Assembly: GCA_023375675.1 (NCBI GenBank)
Contig: JALQBC010000011.1
Span: 310,001 to 374,000 of the forward strand
Source of the DNA: Cytospora piceicola
Taxonomy: Eukaryota; Ascomycota; Sordariomycetes; Diaporthales; Cytosporaceae
Length of the DNA: 64,000 nt
Direction: 5' to 3'
Shown: in pieces, positions 10,171 to 31,140 of the stretch
Position numbering within the stretch: the first letter of the stretch is position 1
Layout: each line of letters opens with the position of its first letter
The notes under the pieces: model-generated
What the model was told of the DNA's origin: nothing
The model's input: the letters and a program-made list of their open reading frames with translations, nothing else
Databases searched by the model: none
Program-made: the position numbers and the translations under genes

Positions 10171-10280
10171 GGAACGCAGGTCCGTTATGGTATCCTGTCG
10201 TTAGGACGCAAGTCCGTTATGGTTTTCTGTCGTTAGGACGCAAGTCCGTTATGATTTTCTGTCGTTAGGACGCAAGTCCA
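10171..10280 (+). repeat. 3'-UTR tandem array of GCAA-tetraloop hairpins (helicase gene)
   Basis: Four copies of a 32-bp unit start 33 nt after the helicase stop codon. Three carry the perfect hairpin GGAC-GCAA-GTCC (10204-10215, 10236-10247, 10268-10279). The first (10171-10183) is a variant, GGAACGCAGGTCC. Units are otherwise near-identical (GTTATGGTTTTCTGTCGTTA). GCAA is a stable GNRA-type loop in RNA. Orientation matches the transcript. Comparable arrays follow the RRM gene and the 642-aa gene. Confidence 0.8.
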
Positions 10281-10404
10281 TCATGATTTCTTAGGTCTTT
10301 GCACATGCAATGACTTGATGAATGAAAATGGAATGACTGCGCTAAGCACCGGCAATACTTGAGTCTGTATGAATTGAGAATTATATAAGAATTGGGCTGG
10401 CCAC

Positions 10405-10490
10405 GAGATAAAATCACCAGGGTTATTCCGTACTTTCACAGTTGAGCGATCAGCTAGGGTACGGCCAACGTACAATCCCTTACTCACTGG
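10405..10490 (+). repeat. Truncated copy of the upstream region of the 642-aa gene
   Basis: The block around GTACTTTCACAGTTGAGCGA and CTAGGGTACGGCCAACGT (10430-10478) is an inverted, slightly diverged copy of 33525-33595, the region upstream of the 642-aa gene. In this orientation the copied promoter faces right, into the virus-like block, whose first decayed gene ends at 10496. No gene follows it. Confidence 0.7.
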
Positions 10491-10495
10491 CTACT

Positions 10496-11710
10496 CTAGG
10501 CTGATGTGAAAATTGCTTTATACTTGCTCCTCAGGCACTTATCCATGTATATGTAGAGGCCCACGTTATTGACGCCGCATATGTCTATGTAAACTCCGTA
10601 CCCAAAGTCTGCTCTCAATAACGCGCTAAAAGGGTCTGAACATGGACACTATTTCAGGACTGCTATGCTTCACGTGGTACATCATGACTGCGTTGTCAAA
10701 TCCGTCGGAGTTATAACCAACGAGGGGGCCGGGAGCCAGTTAGGTCCGTGGTAATCTATGAAGCTCATGGACCTGCTAACGAGTATTTTTAACGTCGAGC
10801 AGAAAGTCACGGTCTCGCTGCTTGCAACTCTCGTTGTTGTCCATGAGTGCTTTAGTCCGCAACTGCACCACAGAGCTATGGATATTATCTTCGAGTTGAG
10901 AGGGATGATGGATCCGTACCCAGCTAACTTCTGACTTGTCTCTATGTCGTACCCCATCGTGCACCCATAGTCAAAGTCGTCGGGAACGGAATCCAGGCCG
11001 GGACTACATCTACTGGTACTGCCCAAGTTCAGACCATATATGGACGCCAGTCTGAGATTCTTGAGCCACCCCATAGGCTGCCATATGGGGCCCACCAGGA
11101 CACCAGGGCATGCAGTGGCCTCCATCCGCAGTATCTTCTCGTACTCTATGGTGTCAGGAAGTGTGAGTAAATCCATGGTGATATATCTCTCCTTATTGTC
11201 TAGTTTTGACACCATTCGTATGTCTATTCTGTTTCCTGATCTGGACCCTTCCCATAGTATACTGTGGTTGCTGGTCACACACCGCTTTACCTCAGCGTAG
11301 CTTACTATATCCATGTCTGTGGGTGTATGTACGGCGATTCTGTTGGTGCTTGCACTGCGTTACATCTTTGGAGCATCCACATCGCGTCACCAAGACAGAC
11401 GCTCGAAATGCTGGAGACCCTTTTGACCGACGATGGGTGAAACAACGAGATAGTCCCAGGAACGAGGCCTAAGGCAATATGTACCGTGGACAGTGCGCTG
11501 GGGTCTAAGGGGCTCGTCGTAAGTTACAGAGCGACAATATACATCTACCTGGGAGAGTTCAACTGTTGGGGAGTCATCGTAGACCCAGAGGCGGCGAAGC
11601 AGATAGGGATGCGATATAGCGGGTAGCGAGAATGTGAGTGTCAACTTCCATGCAGCCACGCAGCCCTACCACAGGTTTCTCATCAATGCCGCGAGAAGGT
11701 TGGGGTCCAT
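10496..11710 (-). pseudogene. Family-B DNA polymerase, N-terminal/exonuclease part only, decayed
   Basis: About 400 codons of the amino half of a replicative B-family DNA polymerase read leftward from ATG 11710. The exonuclease motif Exo I is clear as GYDIETS (DIET at 10948-10937), followed by KIISIALWCSCG. Exo II appears as GYNSDGFDN near 10720-10695, but in another frame because of a frameshift at about 10711. A third frame then continues to 10496 with FGYGVYIDICGVNNVGLYIY. In-frame stops lie at 11668-11666 (TAG), 11387-11385 (TGA) and 11362-11360 (TAA). The palm domain with its catalytic aspartates is missing: the gene is cut at about 10.49 kb, next to the copied promoter fragment. There are no introns. 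Which virus or element family it came from cannot be settled by eye. Confidence 0.75.
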
Positions 11711-11818
11711 CCCGATCTCTGTGTGCCTGTGAACACGGAGGTAATTACGAAGTGAAGATCGCGGAAGGCGGAGTGTCACTAGAGGAGTGCACTGGAATCG
11801 CTAGCGTGGAAGCCGGAA

Positions 11819-11966
11819 TGTAGTAGCCGTTTAGGTACAAGTGGTATATTCTGTGTTCGTGTGTCTTCTTATTTCTACAGAAGGGCCTAAACGCCCGATA
11901 GATATTCTTACAGAAAAGTGGGGCCGAGGAGCCCACCTAAACGGTGGCCCCCTATTGGCCACCACA
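11819..11966 (+). repeat. Solo LTR, copy 2, with 5-bp target duplication
   Basis: The 148-bp segment begins TGTAGTAGCC and ends GGCCACCACA, flanked by the direct repeat CGGAA (11814-11818 and 11967-11971). It matches the copies at 2510-2659 and 29000-29145 in the same orientation. It inserted just upstream of the polymerase remnant, so the insertion is younger than the virus-like block. Confidence 0.9.
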
Positions 11967-11971
11967 CGGAA

Positions 11972-12470
11972 TTATGAATAGACGAGCGAGTGTCGGGCTT
12001 CTGCCTCATGCCTAGCATCTACAAGTCATTCCGTCCACATTGAGGTTGGGTGAAGACAGGAACAAGTGCAAGCTGTACAGATACTTCTCCAGCCTTTTCG
12101 TCAATGTCACTGACTTCAGGACCATAATGTGGACACATGGTCAATTTGTAGTGGATCCAGCAAGCACCAGCAGGTTCCTTATCCTCTGTGGTCCTACGTC
12201 CACATGAAATAGTTCCAGGATAGAGACTATATCAGAGCTCTTTACGGGATGTTGTGGCATAGTTGACGTAGAGCAACTGGTGTGTAAGCGTGAATGTAAG
12301 ATGCCTGCAGGCTGCCGACACTGCCAAGACCTTTGCATCGAACAGGATCATTACGACGAGTGAGCTCGATCTTGCTGAGTGCAGACTTAACCTCACTCAT
12401 AAAGTACATGCCAGGACATGACAGCATCTCTATCCTGCCTATAAAGGTGGCAACTAGGTGCAGCATCGTG
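11972..12470. other. Virus-like block, no confident gene
   Basis: Short open frames on both strands are present but none is recognisable. A leftward frame at 12466-12242 and a rightward frame from 12333 compete. Composition is balanced and similar to the neighbouring decayed genes, so this is probably more decayed coding DNA of the same origin. Confidence 0.35.
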
Positions 12471-12935
12471 TCGTCTTCGAATGACCTTCTAGACCCTGTC
12501 GAGCAGAAGGACTGGCTTCATTCCACGGCAATAGCAAGAAGAGCAGTCGTAGTGCCCATGGAGGTGGACATAAGTACTCTTCCCAAGGGAGAATGGCCCG
12601 ACTCAGAGGCAGACTGCCTGGACTTCCCCCTCACTACCCTAGGGTAGGTGTATGACTTCCTTACTAATGACTCCATGCCTATAACTACGCGGTCTATGCT
12701 GTACAGCACCCTGGGAAGCTGGTACGAGTCTAACGCCGACTTCATAGATATATTCCCTGGTGCATCTATGCAAGACGTAGTCGACGCTAATGTGCTCATA
12801 GAGCAGTCCCTGGGCATGGAGAGTGGGACATCAGGTCAGCTGACGTCGCTGAGATCTCCCACCTGCGCTGTTAGGTACGGAAAGAGCCTCTTTCTAGACG
12901 GTATACGATGCAGAGGTGATGCCAGTGACGTCTAG
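12471..12935 (+). pseudogene. Decayed unidentified gene of the virus-like block
   Basis: A rightward frame with natural protein composition (STLPKGEWPDSEADCLDF, then VYDFLTNDSMPITTRSMLY and GSWYESNADFIDIFPGAS) is interrupted by one in-frame TAG (12645-12647) and ends at 12935. I do not recognise the product. An overlapping leftward frame (12817-12518) is Ser/Arg-rich and looks like its antisense shadow. The start is not defined. Confidence 0.4.
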
Positions 12936-13106
12936 GCGTAGTGACGCTTTATGCTCTGAAACCGACAGCAACTCTGCCGTTGCTGCAACGCATTATGATC
13001 AAGACACAGGACACTTTGCTGCCGCTGTCTATACCCGGACTCCACAAGTACAATTCAATTATTCACTAGTCAAGTCTCTACCGGTGCGCTAGAGCTCACA
13101 GACAAG

Positions 13107-13922
13107 ATGGCGGGCGAAAAGGAAGACATCATCTATGTCGACATTGCCAACGAGGGTGAGAACAATGAGCACATCTTCCTTACCGAGGATGCTCACATAC
13201 GCGATGAGAACGTCCTGGATATGAAGTTCGTGTTCGACAAACCTGCTGACATCACAGACAGTATCAAGAAGAGTAATGCCACCTCTGACTCGGGACGTAT
13301 ACAGCTGGGTTGCCTTGAGTACGGTAGGGTCAAGGTCGTGTATCCAGACGGGTCCCAGTCGGTAAAGGCGTACCTCGGCGACTGTGTTCTTCAGTACTGC
13401 GCTCGACCCGACAAGAGGTATGGCGTCACCTGTGTGTGCCTTGGTGTGACCACTTCGTACATTCGCTCGATCATCTCTGGAGCGTCGTCGAGTGGTGTGA
13501 AGCTTAAGGTGAAGGACAACGTCAAGGAGAGCGATGGATACTGGTGGCTCTCTGCTTCAGTGGACGACTTCAACAAGGACACCATGGTGGTCACTCCAAA
13601 CGACGATGGGACTCTGGGTCAAGTGAACTTGGAAGTACTCCCGTTCCTCAGCAAGGCGGAGAAGAACCTTTAGGCGGACGTCATTGTGGTGATCTCCGCT
13701 AGCCAGACTACCTCTGACGAGGGCACTCCCACAGACCTCTGTGGGAGATTCAACCTCGGCGTGAAGATATCTGAGGTCTACATCACCGACGTGACCGATA
13801 AGAACGGTCCTGTCCTTGAACTCTCGGACAAGTCCAAGAAGGAATCTGTGGAGCCGACCAGAAAGGCCGTAGTCAATACAGATCTCGCTCGCCTACTAAT
13901 GTCTAAGTTCAATCTCAAGTAG
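13107..13922 (+). pseudogene. Unidentified ~270-aa protein with one in-frame TAG
   Basis: ATG 13107 opens a 188-codon frame with an acidic N-terminus (EKEDIIYVDIANEGENNE). It reaches TAG at 13671-13673, after which the same frame continues as ADVIVVISASQTTSDEG to the stop at 13920-13922. Alternating hydrophobic strands (RVKVVYPDGSQSVKAYLGD, YWWLSASVDDF, NLGVKISEVYITDV) suggest a beta-rich fold. A single-stranded-DNA-binding role would fit its place next to replication genes, but no family motif is visible and that is a guess. No introns. Confidence 0.45.
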
Positions 13923-13939
13923 GGCTAGTACATGTCTGG

Positions 13940-14841
13940 ATGACCAGAATGTCTGCACCAGTCTCCGTTATCTCACTACTTTTGTCTCTTCTATTGTCCA
14001 CTCACAGCACACCAAAGCTCGTACAGAATGCCATACCCTTGAGCCAGGGATCATTATCGAACTTGCGTTACCCGAAGGTGTACATGACTGCGAACACAGT
14101 TGACGTTCTGTTTGCGCACATGTACACAAGCTTGGGCACAGGTTCCACAGTATGTCTCAAAGCCGGGTCAAGAGAGAGGATAGAATACACTCAGGTGTTA
14201 CAAAGCTGCTGGGGAAGGGATGCGCGCTCGTCATACACACACCGCTTACTCTGAATGCCACTGGGTTAGGAAATGTTGCAGTAATTATGGAAGAGTAAGA
14301 GTGTGGATATTAGCGAAGACCTGTATGCATCGATGAAGGACGCTCTTAAGCGTAGAGGGGCAGCACCATACACATGCGTACGCTCCTATACGCAGATTTC
14401 GGCATAGCGCTACTTCTGAGCCAGGGATACACTCTCAACAGTGGCGTCACCCCTGACATAAGTCACCACGCATACGCTTCTGCATGGCGAGCACTCAACA
14501 CAGTGAGCATAGTGGGTTAAGAGAATGTGAAGGGCTGGATACTGTCCAATATGGACGGGAGTTCTGCCGTGGGATACGCAATGTCGCAGGGCGTGTCCTT
14601 GTCCAGCATAGACGCCACGCCTCAACTGACTTTCGGTAGGGATAAAGGTATGTCGGACATGAACTACGGTATCCTATTAGAGGCTATCTCCACGAATAAG
14701 ATAGTGAGTGTATTCCGCAGGACATGTAGGCTTCCGTCTTCAGGTGAGTATACTGGATTCTCCTCCGCTAGCCCTGATCTCCAGCTTAACAGTATTTTCC
14801 TTCTTCATATGGAGCTTATGGGCGGCAACCGGGGCGCGTAG
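13940..14841 (+). pseudogene. Decayed unidentified gene with hydrophobic N-terminus
   Basis: The first frame (13940-14254) begins with a strongly hydrophobic stretch (VISLLLSLLLSTHS) like a signal peptide or membrane anchor. It then shifts; the middle part (about 14280-14520) is readable in other frames. The last frame (14527-14841) is open with NMDGSSAVGYAMSQGVSL. At least two frameshifts and an in-frame TAA (near 14518) break it. The product is not recognised; the run of decayed rightward genes continues with the Pif1-like gene 96 nt further on. Confidence 0.4.
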
Positions 14842-14936
14842 CATGATTGACCACTTTCGCAATACCTTCAAATGACACACGCACGCTTCAGACCATGCAA
14901 CACTGGTTGCCTGCTACACACTGCTTATTGTGCATT

Positions 14937-16256
14937 ATGAGTGAGCAAGAAAAGACTCTTTCCGCAGGCCAGAGAGCAGGTGTACATGCGGTCAGCATAG
15001 ACAAGCCCAATGTATTGTTCACTGGTTCAGGAGGCACGGGAAAGTCCTTGATCGTAGAGAAGATGGTGGAGATACTTAGATCTTCTGTGCACTCCAAGAC
15101 TGTGGCCGTGACGGCAACCGCTTGAAGAGCCGCCTTCTCCATTGGAGGTACAACGCTTCACAGCTTTTCCGGAATCAGTCTTGGAGTAGAACCAAAGGAA
15201 GCCCTCTACGCTAAGACTAATAGAAGCTCCATTGCCTCTGGTAAGTGGACAAACACTGACGTGCTCATAGTCGACGAGGTGTCTATGCTTAGCGGAGAGT
15301 TATTTGATAAGCTCGAGTACAAAGCCAAGAAGGTAAGGGGAAACGAGAAGCCCTTCGGTGGCATTCAGCTCGTGCTGGTGGGAGATCTACTCCAGCTGCC
15401 TCTCGTGTCCCAGGGCTTTACTGCCTTGAGGACGTTCCAGGCCGCGTCCTGGGACAAGTGTGTGGACAAGTACATGAAGCTTGACCAAGCCCTCAGGCAG
15501 ACTGACAGAGATTTCATAAGGGCACTTAGATGTATACGTGTCGGTGCAGGTACGGAAGAAGTGGATCTCTTCATATAGAAGGTCTCTCGAGAGGTAAAGT
15601 ACGAGGATGGACTTCGACCAGTTCTGCTTTATGCCACAAAGAGCTGAGCTGAAGGATACAACAATGAGATGATTGAAGAGATAGACGGGGAGCCCGCGGT
15701 GTATCGTTCAGACGACAGGATAAGTCAAGGCGGAAGCTCAAGCATCCATAAACAATTTCCGGCCCCGAAGGAACTAGTCCTCAAGAAGGACACTCAGGTG
15801 ATGCTTGTCAAGAACCTTACCAAGCAGCTCGTTAACGATACTGTCGGAACCGTAGTGGGGTTTGTAAAGCCCAGATCGTCTTCACAGGTCAAGTCATTTG
15901 CAGACCAAACGGAGAAGCTGCCTGTCGTCAGATTCACTCTTGCAGACGGTATGATGCGTACGCTCCACATTACCCGCGAGAGCTGGGAAACTTTTCTTCC
16001 CGACGGAAAGGTTCAATGCCGGCGCGTGCAGATACCTCTGATCCTTGCGTGGGCGATAACTATACACAAGTCCCAGAGTTAGACTATCCAACGGCTGAAG
16101 GTAGATCTCAGTGGTACGTTCGAGAAAGGATAGGTCTATACTGCGCTCAGTAGAGCGGTCAATACCGACAACCTCGAGGTAGTGAACTTCAAGAGAGACC
16201 TGGTGAGAGTTGACGACGAGTCCGTGAGCTTATGCCTCAAGAATGACCTTCTGTAA
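14937..16256 (+). pseudogene. Pif1-family helicase with five in-frame stops and no frameshift
   Basis: A 439-codon frame from ATG 14937 to TAA 16254-16256 keeps the architecture of Pif1-like SF1B DNA helicases. It shows Walker A GSGGTGKS (residues 30-37), RAAFSIGGTTLHSFSGI, Walker B LIVDEVSML (about 110-118), LVLVGDLLQLPLV and, at the end, IHKSQS and ALSRA (motifs V/VI). Stops interrupt it at 15123 (TGA), 15576 (TAG), 15645 (TGA), 16080 (TAG) and 16131 (TAG). The last two fall where the family usually has Gln, as expected if CAG became TAG. The whole length stays in one frame, so decay here is by substitution only. No introns, unlike host Pif1 genes expected in this fungus. It likely served replication or recombination of the lost element. 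Confidence 0.8.
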
Positions 16257-16346
16257 CTTTCCTCTAAAATCTGAAGGCAACTACAACTACGTTACGCTAA
16301 CATATACACACTGAGAGTAGTATACCACGCTCCACGTTCTGCAACA

Positions 16347-17225
16347 ATGGAAAGACCGACCATGAACACAGTCAGACCAAAGCCGCAAAGGAACACAAGG
16401 ACCATTACAGGCACATCCAAAGCCACCCGGGAGGTGAGGAGTAATGTACGAGCGAGCGTTACAGTCGCACCCAGGAGGCCTACACCACTGCCGGAAGCGC
16501 CAAAGAGAACTCAGCATCACGGAGTGAGACCCAGGGTCAAGACCGTGTCTTAGCCAACCGAAGCGAGTAGTGGTGTAAAGCAGACATCCGACACCGAGGA
16601 CTCACGAAAGACAGTGACAGAGGAGGGATGACCGGACAACGACGTGAGCAAAGAGCAACCCCAGACGAGCACCTCCGCCGGTGAGGTACAGCATAAGGAT
16701 GTGCCACTGCCCGCCAGCACGAACGATGAAGTGAACACTTCTCGAACACAGTCTGCATATGTGATCCACTTTAACGACAAGTCCGTCTCTACGCTGCACC
16801 TCTCCAATGACTACAATGTCGACATGATGATAGACGGTACGTTTTACCATTGCGTTACGGCATACATATACTCTAAGGAGTATAAGGTAGAGGAGAACAT
16901 TGCTGCAAACAAGCATATGAAGTCGCAGTCTAGTACTCTGTGCTGCAGGATATCCAGAGGGCAGAACCCACTCAGGAACGCTACTGAAACCTCTATCCAA
17001 GTCCACGCGCACATGTGCACGGCACTCGCGGTAAATTTCACTTCCAACGGTGATCTAAGCAGTACCCTGTGCAGCCTTAACGAGTCCGCCATCGTGTACG
17101 ACAGTGACGACTGCTACTGGGGATGAAAAGGATGGAAGTGTTATGAACAAGCCTGGAAGACTTCTTGTTAATGTGCGCCTCATCGTGAGAAGTAGCGATA
17201 CGAAGTTAAGAATAACGGTATGTGA
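16347..17225 (+). pseudogene. NADAR (YbiA-like) domain protein, decayed
   Basis: One frame from ATG 16347 runs to 17126 with two in-frame stops (TAG 16551, TGA about 16629). The N-terminal part is basic and Pro/Arg-rich. The C-terminal part matches the NADAR pattern: IHFNDKSVSTLHLSNDYNV, MIDGTFYHCVTAYIYSKEYK, RISRGQNPLRNA and SNESAIVYDSDD-like text ending in YWG. After a frameshift near 17125 the usual last block is visible as MNKPGRLLVNVRLIVR. NADAR proteins are linked to ADP-ribose or riboflavin-related N-glycosidase chemistry and occur in large DNA viruses and phages as well as cells. Function here is lost; the family call rests on the motif order. Confidence 0.65.
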
Positions 17226-17343
17226 GTCATCTCCTTTACGGTGTTTGTGGGGGCCAACACAGTGCAACACTGTTGCTTTACAACACCTGTGCAGCTCTCC
17301 TGGTACCGAAGATGTGCTAGACCACGTGGGTGTTTGAACGCAC

Positions 17344-18035
17344 GTGCTACAACCTTGGAATGTCTATATGGACGGTGCATGTAGCTCCAACGGCATGCCG
17401 TCTGCCGTAGCTGGAATAGGTGTATGGGTGGAAGAAGACCCAAACTCTCCGTGTCTGAGGCCATATAGACGTATCACCCGCAGACGAACAACGTTGCTGA
17501 GCTCCTCACAGTGAAGCGCGCGCTACCGTTGGGCAGTAACTGTAGAGAGTTGAGGATATTCTCAGACTCCATATACGCGGTCACCTCCATTACCAACTGG
17601 CACGACACATGGCGCAAAAACAACAGGAAGAAGAGGAACGGTGATGCCCCGCAGAACATATACAAAATAATGAAGATAAAGCAGGAGAAGGTCAGTCTTC
17701 AATCCGCGGATTGTAAGGTGTCTCTGCTTCACGTGAGGGGCCACTCCTCGAGCGCGGGTAATACTATGGCCAATGACCTAGCCCAGAGTGTAGTGAAGAG
17801 GGCGCGGCAGAGGGACACCCACGCCACAGTTGCCACCTTGATGAAGCTTGACTGCACTGAGACCCTGAATGACGATGAAGAGTGCGCAGTACTGGGCCAG
17901 GCGTCCATCGACTCTCCAGGCACCCTGTACGACTCTCCTCATACTGAAGACAATGCCATGCCGCTACCTCTTTCGCCATCTACTGTAAGTGGCGACAAGC
18001 ATGTACGCCCTGTGGATAACAGTTGGAGACAATGA
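17344..18035 (+). pseudogene. Ribonuclease HI, decayed
   Basis: The first catalytic block is WNVYMDGACSSNG. After a frameshift near 17475-17485 the second block reads QTNNVAELLTVKRAL, then IFSDSIYAV, and finally HVRGHSSSAGNTMANDLAQ. These are the four conserved blocks of RNase HI (D, E, D and the His/Asp region) in order and spacing. In the last block the usual Asp after GN..A reads Asn, so catalysis would be weakened even without the frameshift. The enzyme removes RNA from RNA/DNA hybrids. An insert of about 35 residues separates blocks three and four. It follows the NADAR gene in the same direction and precedes a small coiled-coil ORF. Confidence 0.75.
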
Positions 18036-18038
18036 TCA

Positions 18039-18233
18039 ATGGCCGAGAGTATGCTCAGGTCTCTCTCTACTCCCACGACAGAGAATATACACACAGTGCG
18101 TAAGCAGCTGGACATGGTAGAGAACAAGCTGAGCCAGATACTGAACATTCTTGTTGAGTGGCGCCATTACTTTCTGAGTTTAAAATATACTTCTGGTCAA
18201 CCTTCAGTACTGATAGAAGGCCTCTACATGTGA
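18039..18233 (+). CDS. Small possible coiled-coil ORF
   Basis: A 64-codon ORF opens 4 nt after the RNase HI stop. Residues 19-42 (HTVRKQLDMVENKLSQILNI) have a heptad pattern of a short coiled coil. No family is recognised. It could be a real small gene of the virus-like element or the tail of another decayed gene. Confidence 0.35.
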   Translation: MAESMLRSLSTPTTENIHTVRKQLDMVENKLSQILNILVEWRHYFLSLKYTSGQPSVLIEGLYM

Positions 18234-18429
18234 GTATACTTTAGTACTAACTGACGCAATGGAGGGGTGGCTATTGCTCAGAAACTCATACATGTTCGTG
18301 TCGCGTTCGCATACGGACTTTATTCAGACTTGTTGAGCTGCCCAGGTGGTGTGTGCGTTGCCGCCCCCTTACTGCTGTGCCCTCGTTTTCCTGCCTCTCT
18401 CAAGGCCGTGGTTCGTTTGATACAACTGA

Positions 18430-19296
18430 AGGTACCCTTGTAGGATGTCCTCTGGCAACATTATTGCACAGCACTTGAGTACTCTGCCATGTATTTTAAA
18501 AGGCTTGGTCTCATTATCTACTCCACCATAATGTCCATGTCGGAGTGAAACCTGTAGCTGAGCGTGCCCAGAAACATAGGCATGTGTATTGACTCCACCA
18601 CTCCGTGTATGGCCGTAGTAAGAGCGTTCGGCAGGTCCGTGAGGTATCGGTCCTTGCCCTGATACCTGACAGATCCACTGCTGCTGACTATGAGATGTGT
18701 ACCCTAGGGTAGCATCGTTCAGGTTGCCCTCTATCTTCAGCGATATAGAACTTCCGACAGTGACTTCCTCTGTGTCTACACACCAGCTAGGTATTTACCT
18801 CACGAGTATAGAGAGAGACTCCTGAGTGAGCTTGCACATGTACAGGGACTTGTTAGAGACCAGCATCCAGAAGAATATGTCCGACTGGCATATGTTGAGG
18901 TTTGCCACACTCACATCGTCCCGGGAGACAGTGCCTCAACTTATCAGCTCGCTGGCCAAGGTCTAACGACCATCTCCCCTGGATCTGAATACTCTTGCTG
19001 TTATCCTTCACGATGCAGGATGAACTCTCCAGTCCGTGAGAGACGTAGTCCTCCGATAGAGTCTCAGCGTCCTCGTACCTGCATCCCTCTATATTAACCC
19101 AGGCCCCCGCAATGTTGGGCTGCATCATTTCTGATGCTATGGTGACGTTTGTGCCTATGTACCACGTTCCCAGTGTCCAGGTATTCCGCCACGCTCGGTC
19201 AACTCCGGCATCGGGCGAGACCCTGTACCCTTTTGACTGTACGAAGGTCACGATAAATAGAATGGTGGGCGAGATGAGAGGGAACAATAGAGACAA
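18430..19296 (-). pseudogene. Decayed secreted or membrane protein gene
   Basis: From ATG 19296 the product starts with a hydrophobic leader (LLFPLISPTILFIVTFVQS) like a signal peptide. It continues with Trp/Tyr/Asn-rich extracellular-type sequence including NVT and CIVKDNSK to about 18950. A frameshift follows, and at least two further breaks separate later readable pieces (EEVTVGSSISLKIEGN at about 18770; RYLTDLPNALTTAIHGV at about 18630). A virion-surface or secreted protein of the lost element is possible, but no family is recognised. Confidence 0.45.
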
Positions 19297-19479
19297 TAGG
19301 CAAATGGGTGTAAGTCCTTAATATGAGAGGTAGTAGTTTAGGTGGTGCCTGAGGGAAGGGAAGGCCCCTATATATAGTTGTTTAGGCAGGTCGACTTGAG
19401 GCAGTCAGGTGACCTGGTGGGCCTAATATTATTATTCATCTAGATTACTAGAATCTTCGATATAGCCTCACATTGACAC

Positions 19480-19701: not shown

Positions 19702-19765
19702 CGTATAGGAGTGTATAGAGGCAACGTCAATTTGCCTCAATGCATCGTTATACGAACAGGACAGC

Positions 19766-21308: not shown

Positions 21309-21316
21309 AGAGGAAT

Positions 21317-22880
21317 CTACAGGCCTGTCTCTGTCAGGAGTTCTGTGGGTCTCTCTGGAGTTCGAACTCTCTCCGGGGTCCGTATGCCCTCCGCCTGCCT
21401 CGTCTTCCCAGTGCTGCGCCTAGTTCTCTCGCGCACGGGAGTGATGACAGCGGTTTTAATTCCCTTTCCCCCGTCTGACGCAGGCGTGTCCCTCTGAACG
21501 GTCGGCGTAGCGACCCTTCCTCTGGCCTCTCTCTTCGCAATGGTCAGAGACGGTGTATACTCAGCGCCGTCACCTGACGTCCCAGAGGTGATGGACATGG
21601 TTGAAGGCGTGGTAACACCGGAAGCAACGGAGACACAATTTCGAGGTGTCTGCGTACGGAGGAGCGTCTGGGAACAAAAGTGGAGACGACCGCTGTTTCT
21701 TTAGAGCACCGTGTCACCCCCCCCCTGTCGACACATTTCTCTGCCACACACCACACTATTTCAGCACAAGTTTCTATATATATCTACTAATATCTTCGCT
21801 ACTATATAATTCTAAAACTTTACACTTTATATATAAGGTAATCGTACTTAAGGCTATTATTATATATTAAATACTTCTAAATCGAGTAAGAGTTAAAAGG
21901 GTTAATGTTTTTCGATTTATAGATATATATATATGAATTTAATCGGAAAGAAGGGGGTAACATTATACCTTAAAAGTAAGAATCGGCTAAGCTTTATTAA
22001 TTTTTAAGTTATATATCGATATAAGATGTTTAAAAATATATTTTATACGCTACTATATAGCTTAAAGCTATACGGTTTTAATAAGCCTGGTTTAACGATT
22101 ATCAGAGACGTATACGTAGAGGTATATCAGAAAGTAGGGTTGAGAATATATGGTGTGTGAGAGAAATACGTTGACAGGGGGGGGTGACACGGTGCTCTAA
22201 AGAAACAGCGCTGCGGAGTGGAGCTTGCCATCGTCTCGTGAGTCTTCATAGCATGACGCTCTATGGCCTCGGGTGTGGCATGACCCCTTCCCAACGACGG
22301 CCCTGGCTTGGCAACAAACGAGGCTGAGCTTTTGCTCGTATTGTCGACAAACTTGAGAGAAGCGGACGTAATGATCATCCGCGTCAGCAGAGTTTCACCC
22401 ACGTCTGTGAACCTCGACAGTAGTTCCCTGAACTCCTCAGCCTCAGGGTGCTTCCCATCTTATCGACGGTCATAGCAACGAGCTGCTTTTCCAGATCTAT
22501 GAACTCCCTAAGGTTGCTTCCAGCCAAGGACGCCGATTCTGCAGTCTGTCGTACGCGCAGTTCAGACTCCCTAACGCGAGGAGGTCCCATTGTATGCGAG
22601 TTTGCAACAACGTTGCCTTCATGAGTGTGTGTGGAAGCAACGGGGTTGCCTATGTACATGGAAAAGGCCTTGGAGGATTTGCTGTCGCCAAGGTTACACC
22701 TAGGGTCGCGGAGGTCGTCGTACTTGTAACTGAGGCTAGCAGGATGGCGCGCCTTATGGAAAGGGCCCCCCAAGTGAGCTTGACGTTTGGGGACTCGAAG
22801 GACTTCTTGAGGGTCCCTGCGGGCCCCCCCCCCGTCCCGCCATCCTCTCGCCCGATACGCCAAGGGAAAATATCTGCACA
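21317..22880 (-). pseudogene. Low-complexity protein gene split by an inverted-repeat insertion
   Basis: Leftward frames on both sides of the insertion at 21694-22212 look like parts of one gene. The right part (22880-22213) has NLREFIDLEKQLVAMTVDKM, then after a frameshift near 22440 TRMIITSASLKFVDNTS. The left part (21693-21317) is Thr/Pro/Arg-rich (TPSLTIAKREARGRVATPT and repeated RTPER units). The protein is unrecognised and apparently mostly disordered at its C-terminus. Confidence 0.4.
21694..22212. mobile_element. Inverted-repeat-bounded AT-rich insertion (MITE-like)
   Basis: The left arm (about 21694-21756) starts CGCTGTTTCTTTAGAGCACC, continues through a C-run and reaches CACACACCA. 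The right arm (about 22152-22212) is its reverse complement with few differences. The 390 bp between are very AT-rich and TA-rich, like RIP-decayed DNA, while both arms are not. No clear target duplication was found at the outer edges. It could be a small DNA transposon or a palindromic junction. Confidence 0.65.
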
Positions 22881-23505
22881 TTTATCTTGCCGTATTTCGA
22901 CGTCTCTCTTAGAAGCCTTGACAGTATGTTGCACTGGTCTAAGAACTCCCTTATAAGCATTGAAGTCGCTGCTGTCTCTCTCCGGGAACACCCTCTCGTT
23001 GACAAGCAGAGTACCCCTTACTACAAGTATCCATCCATCTCGTATGAGCTCTACTGCCTTAATTCTGCTCATAAGGTTGTTTACCACCATGTCGTTAGCA
23101 ATGATTTCTACAGTGGGCGGTGCGTTACGCCCCATGATACTGCCACACGGTTCCTGTGAGTACCTAGGTAAGACATCGCAGCAGCAGTCTCGGAGTATTG
23201 GTATTAGGGTAAGGACTCTGAGCCATAAGTATGACGTTTAGCGGCACTGATGTAGCCACGTATCTGCAGAACGGGTCTGTGTACGGATTGTCGCCGCGCC
23301 TGTAGAACTCCAGTTGATATACGAGGATCCTATATGCTTCCTCCACTGTGTAATCTTTAAGGTCCACTGAAGGGTCCATCATACGTTTTCTCTGTACGAC
23401 ACTTTCTGGTGTCGAGGTACAATAGCACAGTGTTGTTCCAAGTCTCTCTGTAATTACTGCTGACACCTGCCGAGGGCCCCCAAGAACATATTTCAAAGGG
23501 TCCAT
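22850..23505 (-). pseudogene. Possible uracil-DNA-glycosylase-like protein, decayed
   Basis: From ATG 23505 the frame runs to about 23200 and ends in VPLNVILMAQSPYPNTN, which resembles the first active-site block of uracil-DNA glycosylases (G-Q-D-P-Y). The catalytic Asp position reads Ser and the first Gly reads Ala. After a frameshift near 23190 the next frame gives LPRYSQEPCGSIMG, NLMSRIKAVELIRDGWILVV and RGTLLVNERVFPE, similar to the WL..GVLLLN region of the family. If right, it was probably a non-catalytic, processivity-factor-like relative. The resemblance is partial, so this is a moderate call. Confidence 0.4.
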
Positions 23506-23687
23506 CAGGACTCCTATACATATGTGTGTATGTAAGGTGTAGATATAATGAATGGCCTGTCATGCTACTCCTCACCTCGGAGTCTAGTAGCGTTCACTAT
23601 GGCGTCCGTAAGCTTTATATTCGCGCTTTCTACGGGGCTGGGAGTAGGAAGCTTGTACACGAGCGCTACGACTCTGAAGAGACTGTC

Positions 23688-24420
23688 TCAGTCGTAGCGT
23701 TTACCTGTCACCTGCCTGGACCCTCCTATGCACCTGGAGTAGTAATACATTCTCCCTATGTAATCCAGCGGCGCGTCCCCGGCATCCATATCTATAGAGC
23801 CTGTGCCCACAGCCCTGGTCTCAGTAGACATGGGACAGCCGTACACAGGGCATATGTACTTGCACCTACCAGTTCCGTCTAGGGGTCTCACATACCTTGT
23901 CTTGGTGCATTGTATGGACCAGGAGTATTCAGGCATTATAGTTATACAACCTACGTACTCTTGTATACTCGTATCGTGACATATGACACATATCTTGCCA
24001 GGCATGTACCATGACGTGACAAACGACGAGATGTCTAACCTGTATGTGGACAGAGTCTCCTTCACGCCGTTAGTCTCATACATGGCACGTCGCAGTCAGT
24101 GGCGGTGACTATGGTGCCTCCAGGATCCTCCGTAGATATGCACACCACTGTGCACCGCGCGCCACAGACCTGTGCCCTATGAGCTCAGTCGTGGCGTCTA
24201 CGTACTTGTATCCCGGCTGCGTAAGAAGAACGCACACAGAAAACTTCTTGCTCCCGCTGAACGAGTACACGTCGAGGGCAAAGTTCTTTACGGAGTCTTC
24301 CCATGGAACCTTCATTAGATCGTTCCGTGTGCTCGACTCCATTCCATAAGAACTCATGGGTATGTAGTCAACATTTAGAAGCCTGTCTATGTACACGGAA
24401 TACGCTGGAGAGGCAAACAA
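23688..24420 (-). pseudogene. Decayed unidentified Cys-containing protein gene
   Basis: From ATG 24420 the first frame gives SVYIDRLLNVDYIPMSSYG and VKNFALDVYSFSGSKKFSV. Two frameshifts near 24110 and 24085 lead into the last frame (24083-23688), which has paired cysteines (KICVICHDT and CKYICPVYGCPMS) spaced like a zinc ribbon. No family is recognised. It lies head-to-tail upstream of the glycosylase-like remnant. Confidence 0.45.
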
Positions 24421-24716
24421 GCCTCTACAGCCACCGTACTTGTTACATATATAAGATATCTGCAGCAGTTCCTAACCTGAGTACTCAGGCCTTGCAATAC
24501 ACTGCCTGCGTCGCCTGTACTGTCTGTGTCAGTGTCGTCGCCAGCCTTTGGCCCGTCCTTGCTTCCTGCTCATCTTATTGCCTCCTCCACCGGTTCTGCT
24601 CTGCTTGACCACACGGAGGTATATCTTGAGAGTCACGTAGTTGTACACAGCGACGTGAGTCGCATACGTCACACACCACACGCTCTTGCAATGAGAAGCC
24701 TCTACACTGCAGAGAC

Positions 24717-25124
24717 ATGGACAAGAAATTAGAGGACTACGGCGGCTACTGAGAAGAAGGGAGACACGAAAACATTGAGGGCGACCGTCCCAACACTGTG
24801 CTACTTTCGAATGGAGGTGGAAGTGAGCCCAATATGGGAGCCCTACTGAGGTGCCGTGGAAGTGATCTTTACTCTGTACATCCTGCCCTCGACGGCTATC
24901 TTACATTATTTAGGTGTAACAGAGAGTATGGAACATACGGCGGGTGTAAGTACGGTGGGGCAGAACTACCTGAGTTTGACCAACGCCTTACGAAGGGGTG
25001 TGTGACGCCACTCAAGGGTTTTGATAACTCAGTAGGACACTTCGTTGGCAGAACACCCGACGACACAGACGGGTGCAACTCGTTCACTGTGTGCTTCGGG
25101 CCTGAGCTTGTGCCAGATGTATAG
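24717..25124 (+). pseudogene. Unidentified 135-codon ORF with one in-frame TGA
   Basis: ATG 24717 opens a frame interrupted by TGA at 24750-24752 and continuing to the stop at 25122-25124. Gly- and Cys-containing text (FRCNREYGTYGGCKYGG, GHFVGRTPDDTDGCNS) looks like a real folded protein. It is the last gene-like unit of the virus-like block. Not recognised. Confidence 0.4.
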
Positions 25125-25216
25125 ACGTTCGTAGAGTCGTTGAGAATGAACCTCAGCCCCAGTGTTGCGCGCGCCGCGCGGACGTCTGTGGTCGCTTAGC
25201 AACTCGAGGATGACAG

Positions 25217-25335
25217 ATTATCAAGAAGGTAAGTTGTAATGGCTTTAGTGTGGTTACGTTAATCGCGGTAGTCGATGCTGAGGATTTGGTCGCGTTAGTT
25301 GCGGTAGTGCAACAAACCTTTCCCCAATTGCACAA
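25217..25335 (-). repeat. Truncated inverted copy of the helicase gene upstream/leader region
   Basis: The reverse complement of this segment matches 7747-7850 over about 95 bp. It has the words GTGCAATT, GCACTACCGCAAC, CGCGACCAAATCC, AGCATCGAC and AACCACACTAAAGCC, with differences mostly C-to-T and a 10-bp insertion near the outer end. The helicase coding sequence is not present. The copied promoter faces left, into the virus-like block. Confidence 0.8.
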
Positions 25336-25397
25336 AAACAGTCTTACATCCCTCGAAAGTTATTACTGCGCTGCAAGGCTGCAAAATATTTTGGGTT

Positions 25398-25682
25398 TAT
25401 AAAAGTGGGGCCGAACGAGATGCACCCAGCTATTACTTAGGAGCTTCGCAACATTAAAACCACCACAACCTTCGCAAACCACCACAACCTTCGCAAACCA
25501 TCACAACCATCACAACCATCACAAGCCATCGCAACCACCACAGTTCATAACAATCATATCATTTCCACGTTGACCCTCCTCCGCATTCAAAGTAAGTGAC
25601 CAATCTTTCATCGGGCACGTCGCATACAGCTTGCGGCTGTCATTGCCGTTCCTTTGACATCTTGAGCTAACATATAATCAAG
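25398..25682 (+). promoter_or_regulatory. TATA box, CAA/ACC-rich leader and 5'-UTR intron of the RRM gene
   Basis: TATAAAA at 25398-25404 is followed after about 30 nt by a G-poor leader made of ACCACAACCTTCGCAAACC-type repeats (25440-25550). A probable 5'-UTR intron starts at GTAAGT 25592 and ends at the AG just before the ATG (25682), with a CTAAC branch site at about 25665. The leader style matches that of the DEAH helicase gene. Confidence 0.55.
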
Positions 25683-27674
25683 ATGTCGATTCAACACAGA
25701 CTCACCAAGAAGCAAGACAAGACCGAGGCCGGTCGCTTGCGAAGAATTTTTATCACAAACCTCCCCATCGCCCGCTCCCGCGTCGAGGTTGGTGATTTCA
25801 TTCGACAGCAGGGTTTCGATGGCAACATCATCTGCTACTGGGAGTGGCTGGAGAAGGATGGGCCCCACAAAGGCCGATGCTGGGTGAGCTTCGCCGATGA
25901 GGCGACTGCGCAGCGCGCATCGGCCGCTCTGAACGGTCTGGTATTCGGCGGCAGGAGCATGCGTGTCGTGCGGGATGGAGAGACAAAGGCCGGTATGGCG
26001 GCCAACGTAAGTTCTTCATGATTCTGTCCCGATGAATCCCAATGTCTATGGATATAGCGCGGCTAACATTATCGCTTCTAGCAACCGAGCGATACCCCGT
26101 CTGCCCCCCAACAGCATCCTGCTCCACAGGCTGGACCGTCGCAGCCGGTCAAGGGAACGCGCGACCTTACACTGGCCGAGCGTAGTGCTAGTATGGGTAA
26201 ATACCTGAAGGGGGTGCAGGACCTGGACGAGAAGCTCGAGAAGGAGATGCGTGCTGCGCCACAGACAACCCACCAGCCCGAGATTGTCGACTCCTCCAAG
26301 CATACGACTTCGGTTGGAGGAATGGCAACCCACACCACGGCCGTCTTCGAGCAGGCCAGGCCAATTGTCCGTCTGCCCGTTGTCCCGGCTGCCCCTTGCA
26401 CCGTGGACGAGTCAAAGGCTCTGCAGTAAGTGAACAAAAAAAGAATACCCATGATATCATGACAAAGCTGACCATGATACAGATGTGTCCCCCACGCAGC
26501 GGAGGTCAACACCCCCCCCTCCCCAGTCGAACCTCAGCCCACCATCGAGAAATACACATTTTTTTTGACGCCATACACCCTTGTCAATTTAGCGCAAGCT
26601 AATCAAATTCTCGAATCTATTCGTCTTCAGTTCTATCCCACCTCTTTTTCAGTCATAGGGGAGAACACGCTGGACGACGCTCTTACAGCATTCATCGAGC
26701 GCTGTAAGCGAATTGATAGCGCATATATGCGCGCTGGTGTGCAGGGTGGTGCGCCAGTTCTTCAAGCCAACGAACACAAGGGTGGCGCCAATCCTGAACC
26801 CGTGGTCATGAATGCATTGATCGCTCGACATTATCCTGCCCCCTCCTCCGACAACGACTCGTTCGCACAGTCGTTACCTGTTTATGTCTATAAAGACATG
26901 GAGAAGGTTAGCGATTTCTGGGAGGGACATGTCGACAAGACTGCGGTGCCGGGTTCCTCGCAAGCGATCAAGCAGGACAATTTCCCTGACGTCAAGCGTA
27001 TCGTCGACGTTAAGACTGTTCTGCTGCGAGACGTAGCTTCCTACGTGTCTGATGGCTGGGATGTCTGGTACCAGGTAATAACGCCGCACAACATGGATAC
27101 CCGAACCATTCCCCGTATCCTTGACGTGTTGTCAATGAACGAGCCATGGAAGGATACGATGTCAATGTTCTCTGTTGGCATCCGATTGTCAGGCATAGAA
27201 TGGTCTCCGGGTATGACCCTCCCACTTGGCCCGCAAGGAAGTTACGTCCCGGACCCCTTCAAGGGCACGACCTTCAGTCCGCCGTCCGAGACCGGCAATA
27301 TCATGCAGACGGCCACCTCCGCCTGTCATGCCCTGATGGACAGGCGCCCAACGCACATCAGCGCCGGCTGGGGAGATCATGATCTCTTCAGGGATTGGCA
27401 GGCCCATGGCCGTCAGGTCAAGCTCGAAATGATTGATAAGGATCGCGAGTGGCTGAAGAGCTCCGCGGGGCCCTTGATATTCGAAGAGGACGGGAACCCC
27501 AGCAAGCAGTACAAAGTCACAGTGATGCCGAAGGGGATTCTTGAGCAGTTGGATATGGATGGTCAGGCCATGGACAACAAGCTCGAGACGCTATATGAGA
27601 GGAAGGCCCCTAAGAACAAAAAGGGTGCAGGCAAGGCCACATATCGGCGGACACCGAATCCGGGCGCGTGGTGA
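25683..27674 (+). CDS. RRM-domain RNA-binding protein, 619 aa
   Basis: Three exons (25683-26006, 26082-26425, 26483-27674) with GTAAGT...AG introns give an intact 619-aa protein. Residues about 20-100 form one RNA-recognition motif: RRIFITNLPIARSRVEVGDF (RNP2 region), then KGRCWVSFADEATAQRASAA (RNP1 region). A Gln/Pro/Ser linker with a short charged helix (KYLKGVQDLDEKLEKEMRA) follows. The C-terminal 370 residues (from YTLVNLAQANQILESI) look globular but I do not recognise them; they end in a Lys-rich tail (KAPKNKKGAGK). The gene begins after a TATA box and CAA-rich leader and stops 16 nt before a GCAA-hairpin array, as in the helicase and 642-aa genes. An RNA role is certain only for the RRM. 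Confidence 0.8.
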
Positions 27675-27689
27675 ACAGGTCTTTTCTTT

Positions 27690-28030
27690 TTAACGCAAGT
27701 TGATCTTTCTTTTGTATGGCCTTTGGCCACCTGTTGTTGGGGATTGTATGGTGTTTTTCCCCCCTCTTTTTGACGTAAGTCAATCATATTTTGTATGACC
27801 CTTGGCCCGCCTGTTTAGGATTGTATCGTGTTTTTTCCCCCTCGTTTTGACGGCAGTCAATCATTCTTTTTTATGGCCCTTGGCCCGCCCGTTGAGGATT
27901 GTATGATGTTTTCCTCCCCTCTTTTTGACGCAAGTCGATCCTTCTTTTGTACGGTCCTTAGCCCGCCTGTTTTTAGGTATTGGCGTATTGGCTGTCTGGG
28001 GTCTCTTGTCGTCTTTTTAATGCAAGTCAA
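27690..28030 (+). repeat. 3'-UTR tandem array of GNRA-type hairpins (RRM gene)
   Basis: Five units of about 77-80 bp begin 16 nt after the RRM stop codon. Each carries a 5-bp stem with a tetraloop: TTAAC-GCAA-GTTGA (27690), TTGAC-GTAA-GTCAA (27770), TTGAC-GGCA-GTCAA (27847), TTGAC-GCAA-GTCGA (27925), TTAAT-GCAA-GTCAA (28017). The first copy changes C-G neighbours as a pair (GAC/GTC to AAC/GTT). The units also share TTTGTATGGCCCTTGGCCCGCCTG text. Confidence 0.8.
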
Positions 28031-28157
28031 TTCAAAATAATGATACGGCCCAAATACATCGGTTTCCTGGGCCCTGTGCATGTACAATGCTACTTATGAG
28101 GACGTAGGCTTTGGGGTCACACCCCCCATTTACCTATAAATATATACATACTGTAAC

Positions 28158-28232
28158 AGCTCACATACATGAGAGATGGCCTAGTACACAAAACCCAGCT
28201 GAACGGGGCTTCAAGGTCGAGTTATGAAGGAT
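28158..28232. repeat. Left member of a direct repeat pair flanking the gag remnant
   Basis: The text AACAGCTCAC, GAGAGATGGCCTAGTACACA and GGGGCTTC (28158-28232) recurs with few changes at 30657-30723. The two copies bracket the decayed gag region in direct orientation, so they are probably parts of its LTRs. A TATA-like element (CTATAAATATATAC) lies just left of this copy. Confidence 0.6.
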
Positions 28233-30140
28233 CTTCGAACCGAGCTGAGACTTTGCTCTCTTTCCAGAGGTCTTCCGGACCCTGTTTCCCCCTCTACGGC
28301 TCGAATTCTAGGCCTAGGTGGTACGTTATCCGAGAACGAAGCTGCAGTGATCGATCTAGTAGCTGACCTAGCGTGAGACGAATCTCTGTATTCAAGTAAC
28401 TCGCGTACTCTAAACCTCTGGTCCTCCATGCCTTCCATTGCCCTAATCGGGATAGTGTCCTTTTTCACTCCCTTTGATCTGGATTGCAGAAACTCGTCCA
28501 TTTTTCCTTCGTCCGATTCAGAGCATCCTTCCTTCTTCTCATTTCAGCCGGTTTATCCTGTCTCGGGTGAGGAAAGGCCGTTCTTCGAGGGGACGGGCGG
28601 GGCGCCTTAAACATAGCTTTATCTTCATCCTGATCCTCTGCAGTAATGCAAGCCCGTTTCCTGCCTATCTCTAAGCCCATTGCGGGAACTGTGTCGTGAG
28701 ATTCAATGTTCCATCCACTCTTCCCAAGCATCCTTGGTCACGGGGCCCGCGCCCCAATCCCTCTCTATTCCGGCTTTTAAGGTGAGCAGCTTAGCCGGCA
28801 CCGACTGAACCGGTCCCTCTCGATTGTTAAAGAATCCCACCGGCCGGGGGTGTTCTGGAATCGGCTTGTTCTGTTCCACCAGTTAGCGGATCTCATACGG
28901 CGGGAACACGACTGCGGGGCCTGTTCACAGCGAGTAATGCCATGTCCTTGCACTTCCTATTTGTAGCAGGTGAACGGAAAACCGAAAGAACGGGATGGAT
29001 GTAGTAGCCTTTAGGGTACAAGTAGTAGTTATGTTCGTGTGTGTCTCTTTTATTGAACTACGAAGGGCGTGGGCGCCAGATAGATATGTCTACAAAAAGT
29101 GGGGCCGAGGCTCACCTAAACGGTGACCCCCTATTGGCCACCACGATGGACCTCCAGGGCTCCCGCAGCGTAACCATCGCCCCGGGCACTACCCCTGGAA
29201 CCTCCTCCATAACACCACGCCCTGGTAGGAACCCTGTCCCCGGTCGTAAAAAGACCCGGCCTGGCCTGCCTGAACCGTCGGAGTCCATCGACACCGGTGT
29301 TCTAGGAGCAGACTTGATCTCTTTTACCTGTTCAAAGAGTTCTTTCATCAAGCCACCCATCTGCAGGACCACGTTCTCCCCATCTTGAGGCATCTCCGAG
29401 TTCCGGTTTTCCAAGAAGGGGTTGTCGGTGGACCCAGGCGCCCCCCCCCCCCCTGGGGAGGAAACAATCGATGACAACCCCCCGCACGTCTTCGAACTTA
29501 CATTCCTAAGACAGCACATTGCCTCGACCCAAAATTCTTTCCCGAGTACAATCTTCCAGCAACTGTCTCCTGCAAGTGTCTGCCCTGGTCATAGAGTTTC
29601 CCAGGAGGACCCGGCAAGGCGGCAAAGAGACGTCTGGTCAGCTCCTGGGTCGGTTCTTCGTTGCACTGAAGGAGAGTTCTGTCGCCCGGCGAACAAATTC
29701 CGGCACAGTTTTCTACCGAAAGCATAGACTCGAGTACCCATATTCTGGTCGAGGTTCCCGTCCCGGATTCAGAATCTCTTTATGAACAGCTTAACGACAG
29801 TTTCCTATTTGCGTTTATCTGCATACAATTTCAAGTCCCAGTTCAGACGTGCCGAGCCTCGAAGACGTAAGCGGAAAGCAACGTTCATCTGACGGGTGCT
29901 TAGAGGCTCTTTATCCGGAGCTATTTGAAGTCTGTGTATCTCGACCTCCTCTAGGTATTCTTCTGGAGATTCTCCAGGAAGTCCTGAGAAGCTGTTGTTG
30001 GAAGAAATTATCACGGGAGCCGACACCTTTGCAAGTAGTTCACAGTGTTCTCTAAGCTGTTCAGCCTCTTCCTGTACCGGCTCTGGAGATAGCGTAGTAT
30101 ATGCGTAAGGTGACAGCGGATCTTCAGACCAGGACTTCAC
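28211..30140 (-). pseudogene. LTR-retrotransposon gag region, decayed
   Basis: From ATG 30140 the frame contains GESPEEYLEEVEIHRLQIAP and FRLRLRGSARLNWDLKLYAD, the typical core of fungal retrotransposon Gag proteins. It breaks at 29805; further leftward pieces are readable at 29519-29146, 28731-28495 and 28501-28211 (Arg/Ser/Glu-rich C-terminal part). At 29000-29145 the region is interrupted by an unrelated solo LTR. No protease, reverse transcriptase or integrase is seen. Direct repeats at 28158 and 30657 may be its LTR remnants. Confidence 0.6.
29000..29145 (+). repeat. Solo LTR, copy 3, inserted in the gag remnant
   Basis: The 146-bp segment starts TGTAGTAGCC and ends GGCCACCACG, flanked by the direct repeat ATGGA (28995-28999 and 29146-29150). 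It aligns with the copies at 2510 and 11819. Apart from a few substitutions it is not AT-shifted, so it escaped or postdates the decay seen in copy 1. Confidence 0.85.
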
Positions 30141-30656
30141 CCAAGCTTAAATATCCTCCAGGGGACTTTAAGCTGCTAACCGGTCTACCGGCTTCCTTTT
30201 AGTCGTAACATAGGGCATGGGATACCGAAATGTTTGAGGTTACCGTAGTTGTACTAAAAACTCTAGAATGTTTGATGAATGGTTCGAAGAGGGTGGGGTG
30301 GATGATGACTGGTTGCTCGGGACAGGGGTTCCGGGAGGTGGTGACAGATCCACTTCTGCTGGGTGTCTCTCCGACCGATTCGGAGAATTAAGGATTTGTA
30401 GTTGGTCTCAATCTGATAATAGGCCTGAACCGGTTCAGAGATGATGGGGATGTAGCTTTTAGGTCAAAGATTGAGGAATTGGGCAAGTGTCTTGATGATC
30501 CGTTGCTGGACACGCTCCTCGGCGCGGCAGCGAAAAGACCCCCTTGCTTTTGCTGGTCTGCTGTTTACAAATGGGCAAACCGTTTGTCGAGTTTTTTTTC
30601 GCACGCAAGGAATCGTTCTTTTGGTCTTCAAGGTCTCTCTGAGCACACCATGAAAC
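30141..30656. other. Spacer between gag remnant and right direct repeat
   Basis: No convincing ORF. It probably holds the 5' untranslated part of the decayed retrotransposon, whose gag reads leftward from 30140. Nothing else is recognised. Confidence 0.4.
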
Positions 30657-30723
30657 AGCTCACCTACACGAGAGATAGTCTAGTACACAAAACCCCACTG
30701 AAAGGGGCTTCGAGATCGAGCTG
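30657..30723. repeat. Right member of the direct repeat pair flanking gag
   Basis: Matches 28158-28232 in direct orientation (AACAGCTCAC, GAGAGATAGTCTAGTACACA, GGGGCTTC). Likely a 5'-LTR fragment of the leftward retrotransposon. Confidence 0.6.
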
Positions 30724-30814
30724 AAGATTTGAGTACGGTTTCTTGATTGTCGGGTCTAGTACATATAAACAACCGACGGGCACCTTCCCCCAGTACAGTA
30801 CGTACTAATGAAAA

Positions 30815-31140
30815 ACATGGATTGGCTTGCGCCGTAAAGAAGAAAGGAAGATGTACTTGCGTACTAATGAAAACATGAATCTGCTTGCCCTGTAACGAAG
30901 AAAGATGTACTTGCGTACTGGAAAAAAAACACCACCAATGAATGGGCTTGCGCCGTAAAGAAGAAAGGAAGATGTACTTGCGTACTAACGAAAAACATGA
31001 ATCGGCTTGCGCCGTAACGAAGAAAGGAAGATGTACTTGCGTACTAACGAAAAACATGAATCGGCTTGCGCCGTAACGAAGAAAGGAAGATGTACTTGCG
31101 TACTAATGAAAAACATGAATCGGCTTGCCCTGTAACGCAG
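30815..31140 (-). repeat. 3'-UTR tandem array with two GCAA hairpins per unit (642-aa gene)
   Basis: Six units of about 54-67 bp begin 17 nt after the stop codon of the 642-aa gene, in its sense (minus) orientation. Two hairpins alternate. GTAC-GCAA-GTAC is perfect in five copies (plus-strand 30853-30864, 30907-30918, 30974-30985, 31033-31044, 31092-31103). GGC-GCAA-GCC is present in four (30824, 30945, and with a 4-bp stem CGGC/GCCG at 31003 and 31062); two further copies are altered and do not pair. Confidence 0.8.

Follow-up and report, generated by a model that had tools for sequence, protein, structure and literature searches.

Three neighbouring genes of Cytospora piceicola each carry, directly behind the stop codon, a tandem array of short hairpins with GNRA-type tetraloops in the sense of their own mRNA. 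The genes, which encode a Prp43-like DEAH-box helicase, a protein with an RRM domain and a protein of 642 aa, lie in a stretch of 64,000 nucleotides (the window; bases 310001–374000 of contig C5, in a genome of 43.6 Mb and 99 contigs). A fourth array-bearing gene, a paralogue of the RRM gene, lies outside the window at C5:305.3–306.6 kb, with some 36 kb separating it from the 642-aa array, and all four carriers (two RRM paralogues, the helicase and the 642-aa protein) fall within 36 kb of that one contig. Judged on sequence, the arrays may constitute a cis-acting RNA element by which one RNA-binding protein, common to all the genes, co-regulates this cluster; we lean towards this reading and give it a little less than an even chance of being right. 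The exon limits of all three window genes were read by eye, and the comparison of arrays was confined to one genome.

The tandem arrays had been described in an earlier note on this DNA, and Tandem Repeats Finder (TRF) and reading of the sequence confirm them, with TRF placing them at 10174–10279 (period 32), 27685–27971 (period 78) and 30801–31144 (period 59). The DEAH array (10171–10288, + strand, period 32) has four units, the first decayed and three with intact GGAC-GCAA-GTCC hairpins, whose loops start at 10208, 10240 and 10272. The RRM array (27682–28038, + strand, period about 78) has five units with TTRAC/GTYRA stems and the loops GCAA (three times), GTAA and GGCA. In the 642-aa array (30814–31141, − strand), GTAC-GCAA-GTAC hairpins alternate with CGGC-GCAA-GCCG hairpins in 11 units spaced mostly 28–30 nt apart. 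The stem letters characteristic of each gene, GGAC/GTCC for DEAH, TTGAC/GTCAA for RRM and both GTAC/GTAC and CGGC/GCCG for the 642-aa gene, were found in the sequence as previously described. The reported distances from the stop codon also hold for two genes: the first DEAH stem, from 10171, lies 33 nt behind the stop (10136–10138) and the first RRM stem, from 27690, lies 16 nt behind its stop (27672–27674). The 17 nt given for the 642-aa gene (stop 31157–31159) becomes 13 nt by the TRF array edge at 31144 or 25 nt by the first stem, which is decayed and runs from 31132, because the figure depends on where the unit start is set. Head-to-tail copies of a unit of 10–100 bp make the arrays minisatellites, a class that is uninformative on function. 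A coding origin was considered and is unlikely, since two of the periods, 32 and 59, cannot be divided by three, although 78 can.

The 20 window units and two units of the RRM paralogue were aligned on the loop. Two CGCAA-type sites behind the paralogue with unpaired arms (L035:5329–5358 and 5236–5265) were omitted, and their inclusion would lower the paired percentage given below. The common motif is a U/C-rich lead mostly ending in UCNUUA or UUUUU, a stem of 4–5 bp with a loop-closing pair that is mostly C-G, the tetraloop, and a tail that is mostly AUC, AUU or GUU. The loop, previously called GCAA-type, is GNRA in 20 of the 22 units (GCAA in 17); the remaining two have GCAG and GGCA. The two paralogue hairpins have GGAA and GAAA loops. 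The orientation claimed earlier is fixed throughout: each of the 20 window units, like both paralogue units, lies behind the stop in the sense strand of its own gene.

The arrays can be recognised from one another. A covariance model built on all units and run over both window strands gave 21 matches at an expectation value (E) of up to 5, of which 19 fell in the arrays, all in the sense direction; the other two were a hairpin in the RRM coding sequence (E 0.011) and one match elsewhere (E 2.8). The former, TTAGC-GCAA-GCTAA in exon 3 at 26581–26610, is not kept in the paralogue, as judged by eye. A model of the 642-aa units only, run over the window and L035, gave 17 matches: its own 11, two of the five RRM units (E 3e-4 and 0.018), three of the four DEAH units (E 0.0097, 0.33 and 0.61) and one other (E 3.6). 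Conversely, the 21 matches of a model of the DEAH and RRM units were nine of its own, nine of the 11 units of the 642-aa array, all sense and six of them below E 0.01 (best 5.7e-6), and three others (E 0.039, 2.0 and 3.7). This cross-recognition makes the arrays of three unrelated genes versions of one element. Alignment of the DEAH and 642-aa arrays scored 67, where the best of 200 shuffles scored 28; the RRM and 642-aa arrays scored 31, a value reached by one shuffle in 200. Since the register of lead and tail also matches between genes, cross-models recognise other genes' units, and the DEAH array can be aligned with the 642-aa array, the units are judged to be largely homologous across genes, and it is improbable that each gene invented its stems independently. 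What holds of the earlier argument, that different stems point to selection on RNA, is the shared design, place and orientation and the two-sided changes in the stems.

Within the genome the element appears to be confined to the cluster. The pattern TTACGGCGNAAGCC has six matches in 43.6 Mb and none in the control. Four of them follow the 642-aa gene and two follow the RRM paralogue; each is in sense with the gene that it follows, and their loops are GCAA, GAAA and GGAA. The strict pattern TTWNNNCGCAAGNNNRT has 49 matches (control 34), 13 of them in the three arrays and 36 elsewhere; full stems accompany 11 of the 13 but only three of the 36, and the matches outside the arrays are scattered and near control level. 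With the loop relaxed (TTWNNNCGDAAGNNNATY) there is no genome-wide enrichment (119 matches, control 336); among the matches listed, the first 100 of 119, two places fall in arrays of the cluster. The earlier note had seen no arrays at 36–64 kb of the window; TRF agrees, as does the covariance model at E up to 5. Genome scans with the patterns showed arrays at this locus only. Apart from the paralogue, the all-unit model found nothing below E 0.5 in the stretches scanned, including C5 at 280–300 and 374–378 kb. In a second set of stretches its best match (E 0.025) was at C36:820581 (L006:1493–1522), a hairpin of similar design that is paired throughout if wobbles are counted; it was rejected as a further array, being an isolated single hairpin that is not behind a recognised gene end. 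Each array used as a DNA query matched itself alone. Four DEAH paralogues (two on C47, one each on C68 and C19) have no hairpin cluster in the stretches examined, and the array is therefore not tied to DEAH genes in general. At the gathering score, the Rfam matches in the window were two tRNAs, both outside the arrays, and the DEAH array had no match; a sub-threshold match to sR28 (21 bits against 39) in L043 lies outside the array.

Covariation was counted over 19 distinct rows and 76 distinct stem cells, with 500 shuffles. Stem cells were paired in 86.8% of cases, compared with 63.9% when shuffled, while sliding the arms left no more than 36.8% paired; ten of the 76 distinct cells were unpaired, and the units are not all intact. 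Over all units, 19 cells were altered on both sides (7.7 in shuffles) and the covariation score was 0.614 (0.231 in shuffles), a score equalled by none of the 500. It was 0.589 against 0.239 within the 642-aa set and 0.458 against 0.191 within the combined DEAH and RRM set. In predicted folds, the sense strand of the 642-aa array forms eight of its 11 hairpins and the antisense four of 11; in the RRM array three of five form in either. The sense folds of the DEAH and RRM arrays stand at z −2.4 and −2.0 relative to shuffles. GNRA is retained in three of five loop variants.

A number of results weigh against selection on an RNA structure. The covariation proposed as a check is present by score, by paired cells and by comparison with slid arms, but not by the pair-type counts, which are the measures least inflated by relatedness. 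Pairs changed on both sides numbered three (2.6 in shuffles, with 304 of 500 as high) and further pair types seven (6.9 in shuffles, with 359 of 500 as high); the 642-aa set and the DEAH and RRM set were likewise at shuffle level for both. Because neither pair-type measure rises above shuffles in any of the three counts, the stem covariation is suggestive rather than decisive, and few independent events lie behind it. In the RRM array, the survival of pairing has P 0.006 if any change is allowed but P 0.21 if only transitions are. Stem cells pair as well in the antisense (81 of 88) as in the sense (78 of 88), and the case that selection acts on RNA and not DNA must therefore rely on loop class, position and orientation. 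Of these, the loop yields a weak statistic, given the three variants in five. The predicted fold of the DEAH array contains none of its four hairpins in the sense strand and two in the antisense, and in the 642-aa array the sense fold shows no extra stability over shuffles (z −0.25). Finally, neither cross-model listed the paralogue units, and with the hairpins masked none of the six gene pairs exceeded shuffles in alignment.

If the arrays do act as a cis-acting RNA element, they would lie in the mature 3' untranslated region (UTR), and an RNA-binding protein would read the GNRA loop and the single-stranded U/C-rich lead rather than the stem letters. Loop and lead are proposed as the recognised parts because both persist while the stem letters change. 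Several copies of the hairpin may provide avidity, and the four mRNAs could be controlled together at the level of stability, translation or localisation. The RRM protein encoded in the cluster is a candidate for this role and might then be autoregulated, and the DEAH helicase might conceivably remodel the RNA–protein complex.

All three window genes are open and contain introns. The DEAH gene (7890–10138, + strand; exons 7890–9214, 9285–9951 and 10007–10138) encodes 707 aa with the Pfam domains DEAD, Helicase_C and OB_NTP_bind, as in a Prp43/DEAH helicase, and its closest outside relatives are about 50% identical (best 120 of 1927 matches). The RRM gene (25683–27674, + strand; exons 25683–26006, 26082–26425 and 26483–27674) encodes 619 aa, with an RRM_1 match in the first exon (E 1e-5) and an uncharacterised C-terminal domain, for which there was no PDB sequence match at E up to 1; a predicted structure of that domain was discarded as useless, with a pLDDT (predicted local distance difference test) value of 35. 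The relatives of this protein are P0002, P0003 and the paralogue, which is 50% identical. The 642-aa gene (31157–33134, − strand; exons 33134–33051 and 33001–31157) encodes a protein with no Pfam match at E 0.01, and C2H2-like fingers are found in its relatives. Its core may be a divergent, uracil-DNA-glycosylase-like one, in which HSQY (365–368) could represent the HPS motif. Named relatives occur in Ilyonectria (RRM), Cytospora leucostoma (642-aa) and Thozetella and others (DEAH); Ilyonectria and Cytospora are Sordariomycetes. No other named species has all three families together among the matches listed (for DEAH, the best 120 of 1927), and the patterns used found no relatives of the RRM or 642-aa protein in viral contigs. 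CA-rich repeats (ACCACCGCAACC-like) stand in the 5' leaders of the DEAH gene (7741–7889, by eye) and the RRM gene (25455–25545), so that what this pair has in common may extend from the 3' side to the 5' side.

The DNA between the genes is mostly broken. From 10400 to 25400 it is decayed and virus- or plasmid-like, with pieces of a PIF1-like helicase (15126–16079), which has relatives of 31–37% identity in 20 IMG/VR contigs, and of an RNase H (17469–18032); a 343-aa reading frame at 19766–20797 is open and occurs once in the genome. Long TTAC/TAAG tetranucleotide arrays in AT-rich DNA at 3800–7700, upstream of the DEAH gene, resemble a repeat island that has mutated heavily. The DNA at 28.15–30.7 kb, between the RRM and 642-aa genes, looks like a decayed element of the long terminal repeat (LTR) type, flanked by direct repeats of 70 bp (28152–28221 and 30651–30720) that are 86% identical. 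A decayed collinear copy of the ends of the 642-aa and RRM genes, tail to tail, is found at C90:795746–796809 (L038:6746–7809). It corresponds to window 31621–31087 at the 642-aa end (83% identical) and keeps, in order, 28152–28072 from behind the RRM array and 26323–26214 from RRM exon 2; it has no LTR-like insertion, and its hairpin is decayed. The 642-aa/RRM pair is therefore present in two places, and because the copy is collinear without the insertion, the 3' ends of the two genes were probably once about 0.1 kb apart. The mobile gene set suggested earlier thus finds limited backing in this single copy, and for that pair only.

Similar arrays might also arise without selection on RNA. A short inverted repeat could have appeared behind one gene, been copied within the cluster by gene conversion or duplication, and expanded by slippage, with template switching in the hairpin maintaining the complementarity of its arms. 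Such a neutral, hairpin-prone minisatellite is a real possibility, if well short of an even one. The apparent homology of units across genes, the free variation of period and copy number, arms that pair equally on both strands, pair-type counts at shuffle level, the lack of a DEAH hairpin in the predicted sense fold, the several decayed units and the abundance of repeats and broken elements at the locus are all as it would have them. It accommodates less easily the start of four out of four arrays directly after a stop codon, all in sense, or a loop class and register that stay constant while stem types vary between genes; the paralogue, too, retains GNRA with two other loop letters.

The arrays may instead work at the DNA level or in 3'-end formation, as transcription terminators, aids to cleavage and polyadenylation, or palindromes bound by a protein. 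Their siting at 3' ends and their U/C-rich spacers would suit such a function, as would the convergence of the RRM and 642-aa genes, whose 3' ends the C90 relic suggests were once so close. This explanation is nevertheless unlikely, since the DEAH gene and the paralogue lie outside the convergent pair, the loop orientation is fixed despite symmetric arms, and the absence of further arrays in the stretches scanned or by genome patterns argues against general 3'-end machinery. That low-complexity repeats containing CGCAAG happen to lie behind these genes is largely refuted and scarcely credible. Pairs of CGCAAG 19–29 nt apart are indeed common in the genome (100 matches, control 36), many of them coding-like, but none of the 98 other pairs has the lead–stem–loop–tail motif (by eye), the 14-mer TTACGGCGNAAGCC is restricted to the cluster, and the cross-models recognise units between genes. 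A more elaborate version of RNA-level control is also improbable, namely that the cluster is a self-recognising ribonucleoprotein module whose own RRM protein, perhaps with the helicase, binds the arrays that every member gene carries in its mRNA. Such a module might tag the transcripts of its genes so that they are controlled, or spread, together, and might keep those genes intact while the repeat-filled locus around them decays. It would amount to a gene set, selfish or domesticated, whose RNA address tag is private to it.

If the arrays function as the proposed cis-acting RNA element, one repeated hairpin design would serve as a private RNA tag on the messages of unrelated adjoining genes, genes that look devoted to the handling of RNA or DNA. 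The cluster would then be a simple test case for how a group of genes comes to have post-transcriptional control of its own, and nature's counterpart to the hairpin arrays that laboratories engineer for tethering. If they are neutral, they are a clear example of how inverted-repeat arrays can mimic selection on RNA, and a caution for searches based on covariation.

Literature searches brought up no description of such arrays, and they can be set beside several known systems. The Smaug/Vts1 recognition element (SRE), the Roquin constitutive decay element (CDE) and the histone stem-loop are cis-regulatory hairpins of 3' UTRs that define RNA regulons. Like the arrays, they place a short stem-loop behind the stop of several mRNAs, with a loop that is steadier than the stem; the arrays differ in their GNRA tetraloop, in their tandem 4–11 units and in that all known carriers lie in one 36-kb cluster. 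In lambda boxB with the N peptide, and in GNRA tetraloops with their receptors, a GNRA-type loop is recognised by a partner and the stem letters matter less. The arrays share the loop type, while reading by a partner is here only proposed; they differ in standing at a eukaryotic 3' end in repeated copies. The double-hairpin elements of mitochondria are also repeated short hairpins, mobile in fungal genomes, but they are mitochondrial and intergenic, whereas the arrays lie on a 1.1-Mb contig, behind intron-containing genes and in fixed sense orientation. Among the structured fungal RNAs described by Li and Breaker (2017, PMC5640933), the rps0 and rps20 motifs likewise occur in 3' UTRs, and rps20 contains two pairs that covary; a GNRA loop is found in the ies6 motif. 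The main text of that paper does not use the word 'tandem', and the arrays appear to differ from its motifs in being a tandem element common to unrelated neighbours. In kind, then, the arrays would be a 3'-UTR cis element, and what appears to be new is their design, in which GNRA hairpins stand in tandem and belong to a single cluster of genes.

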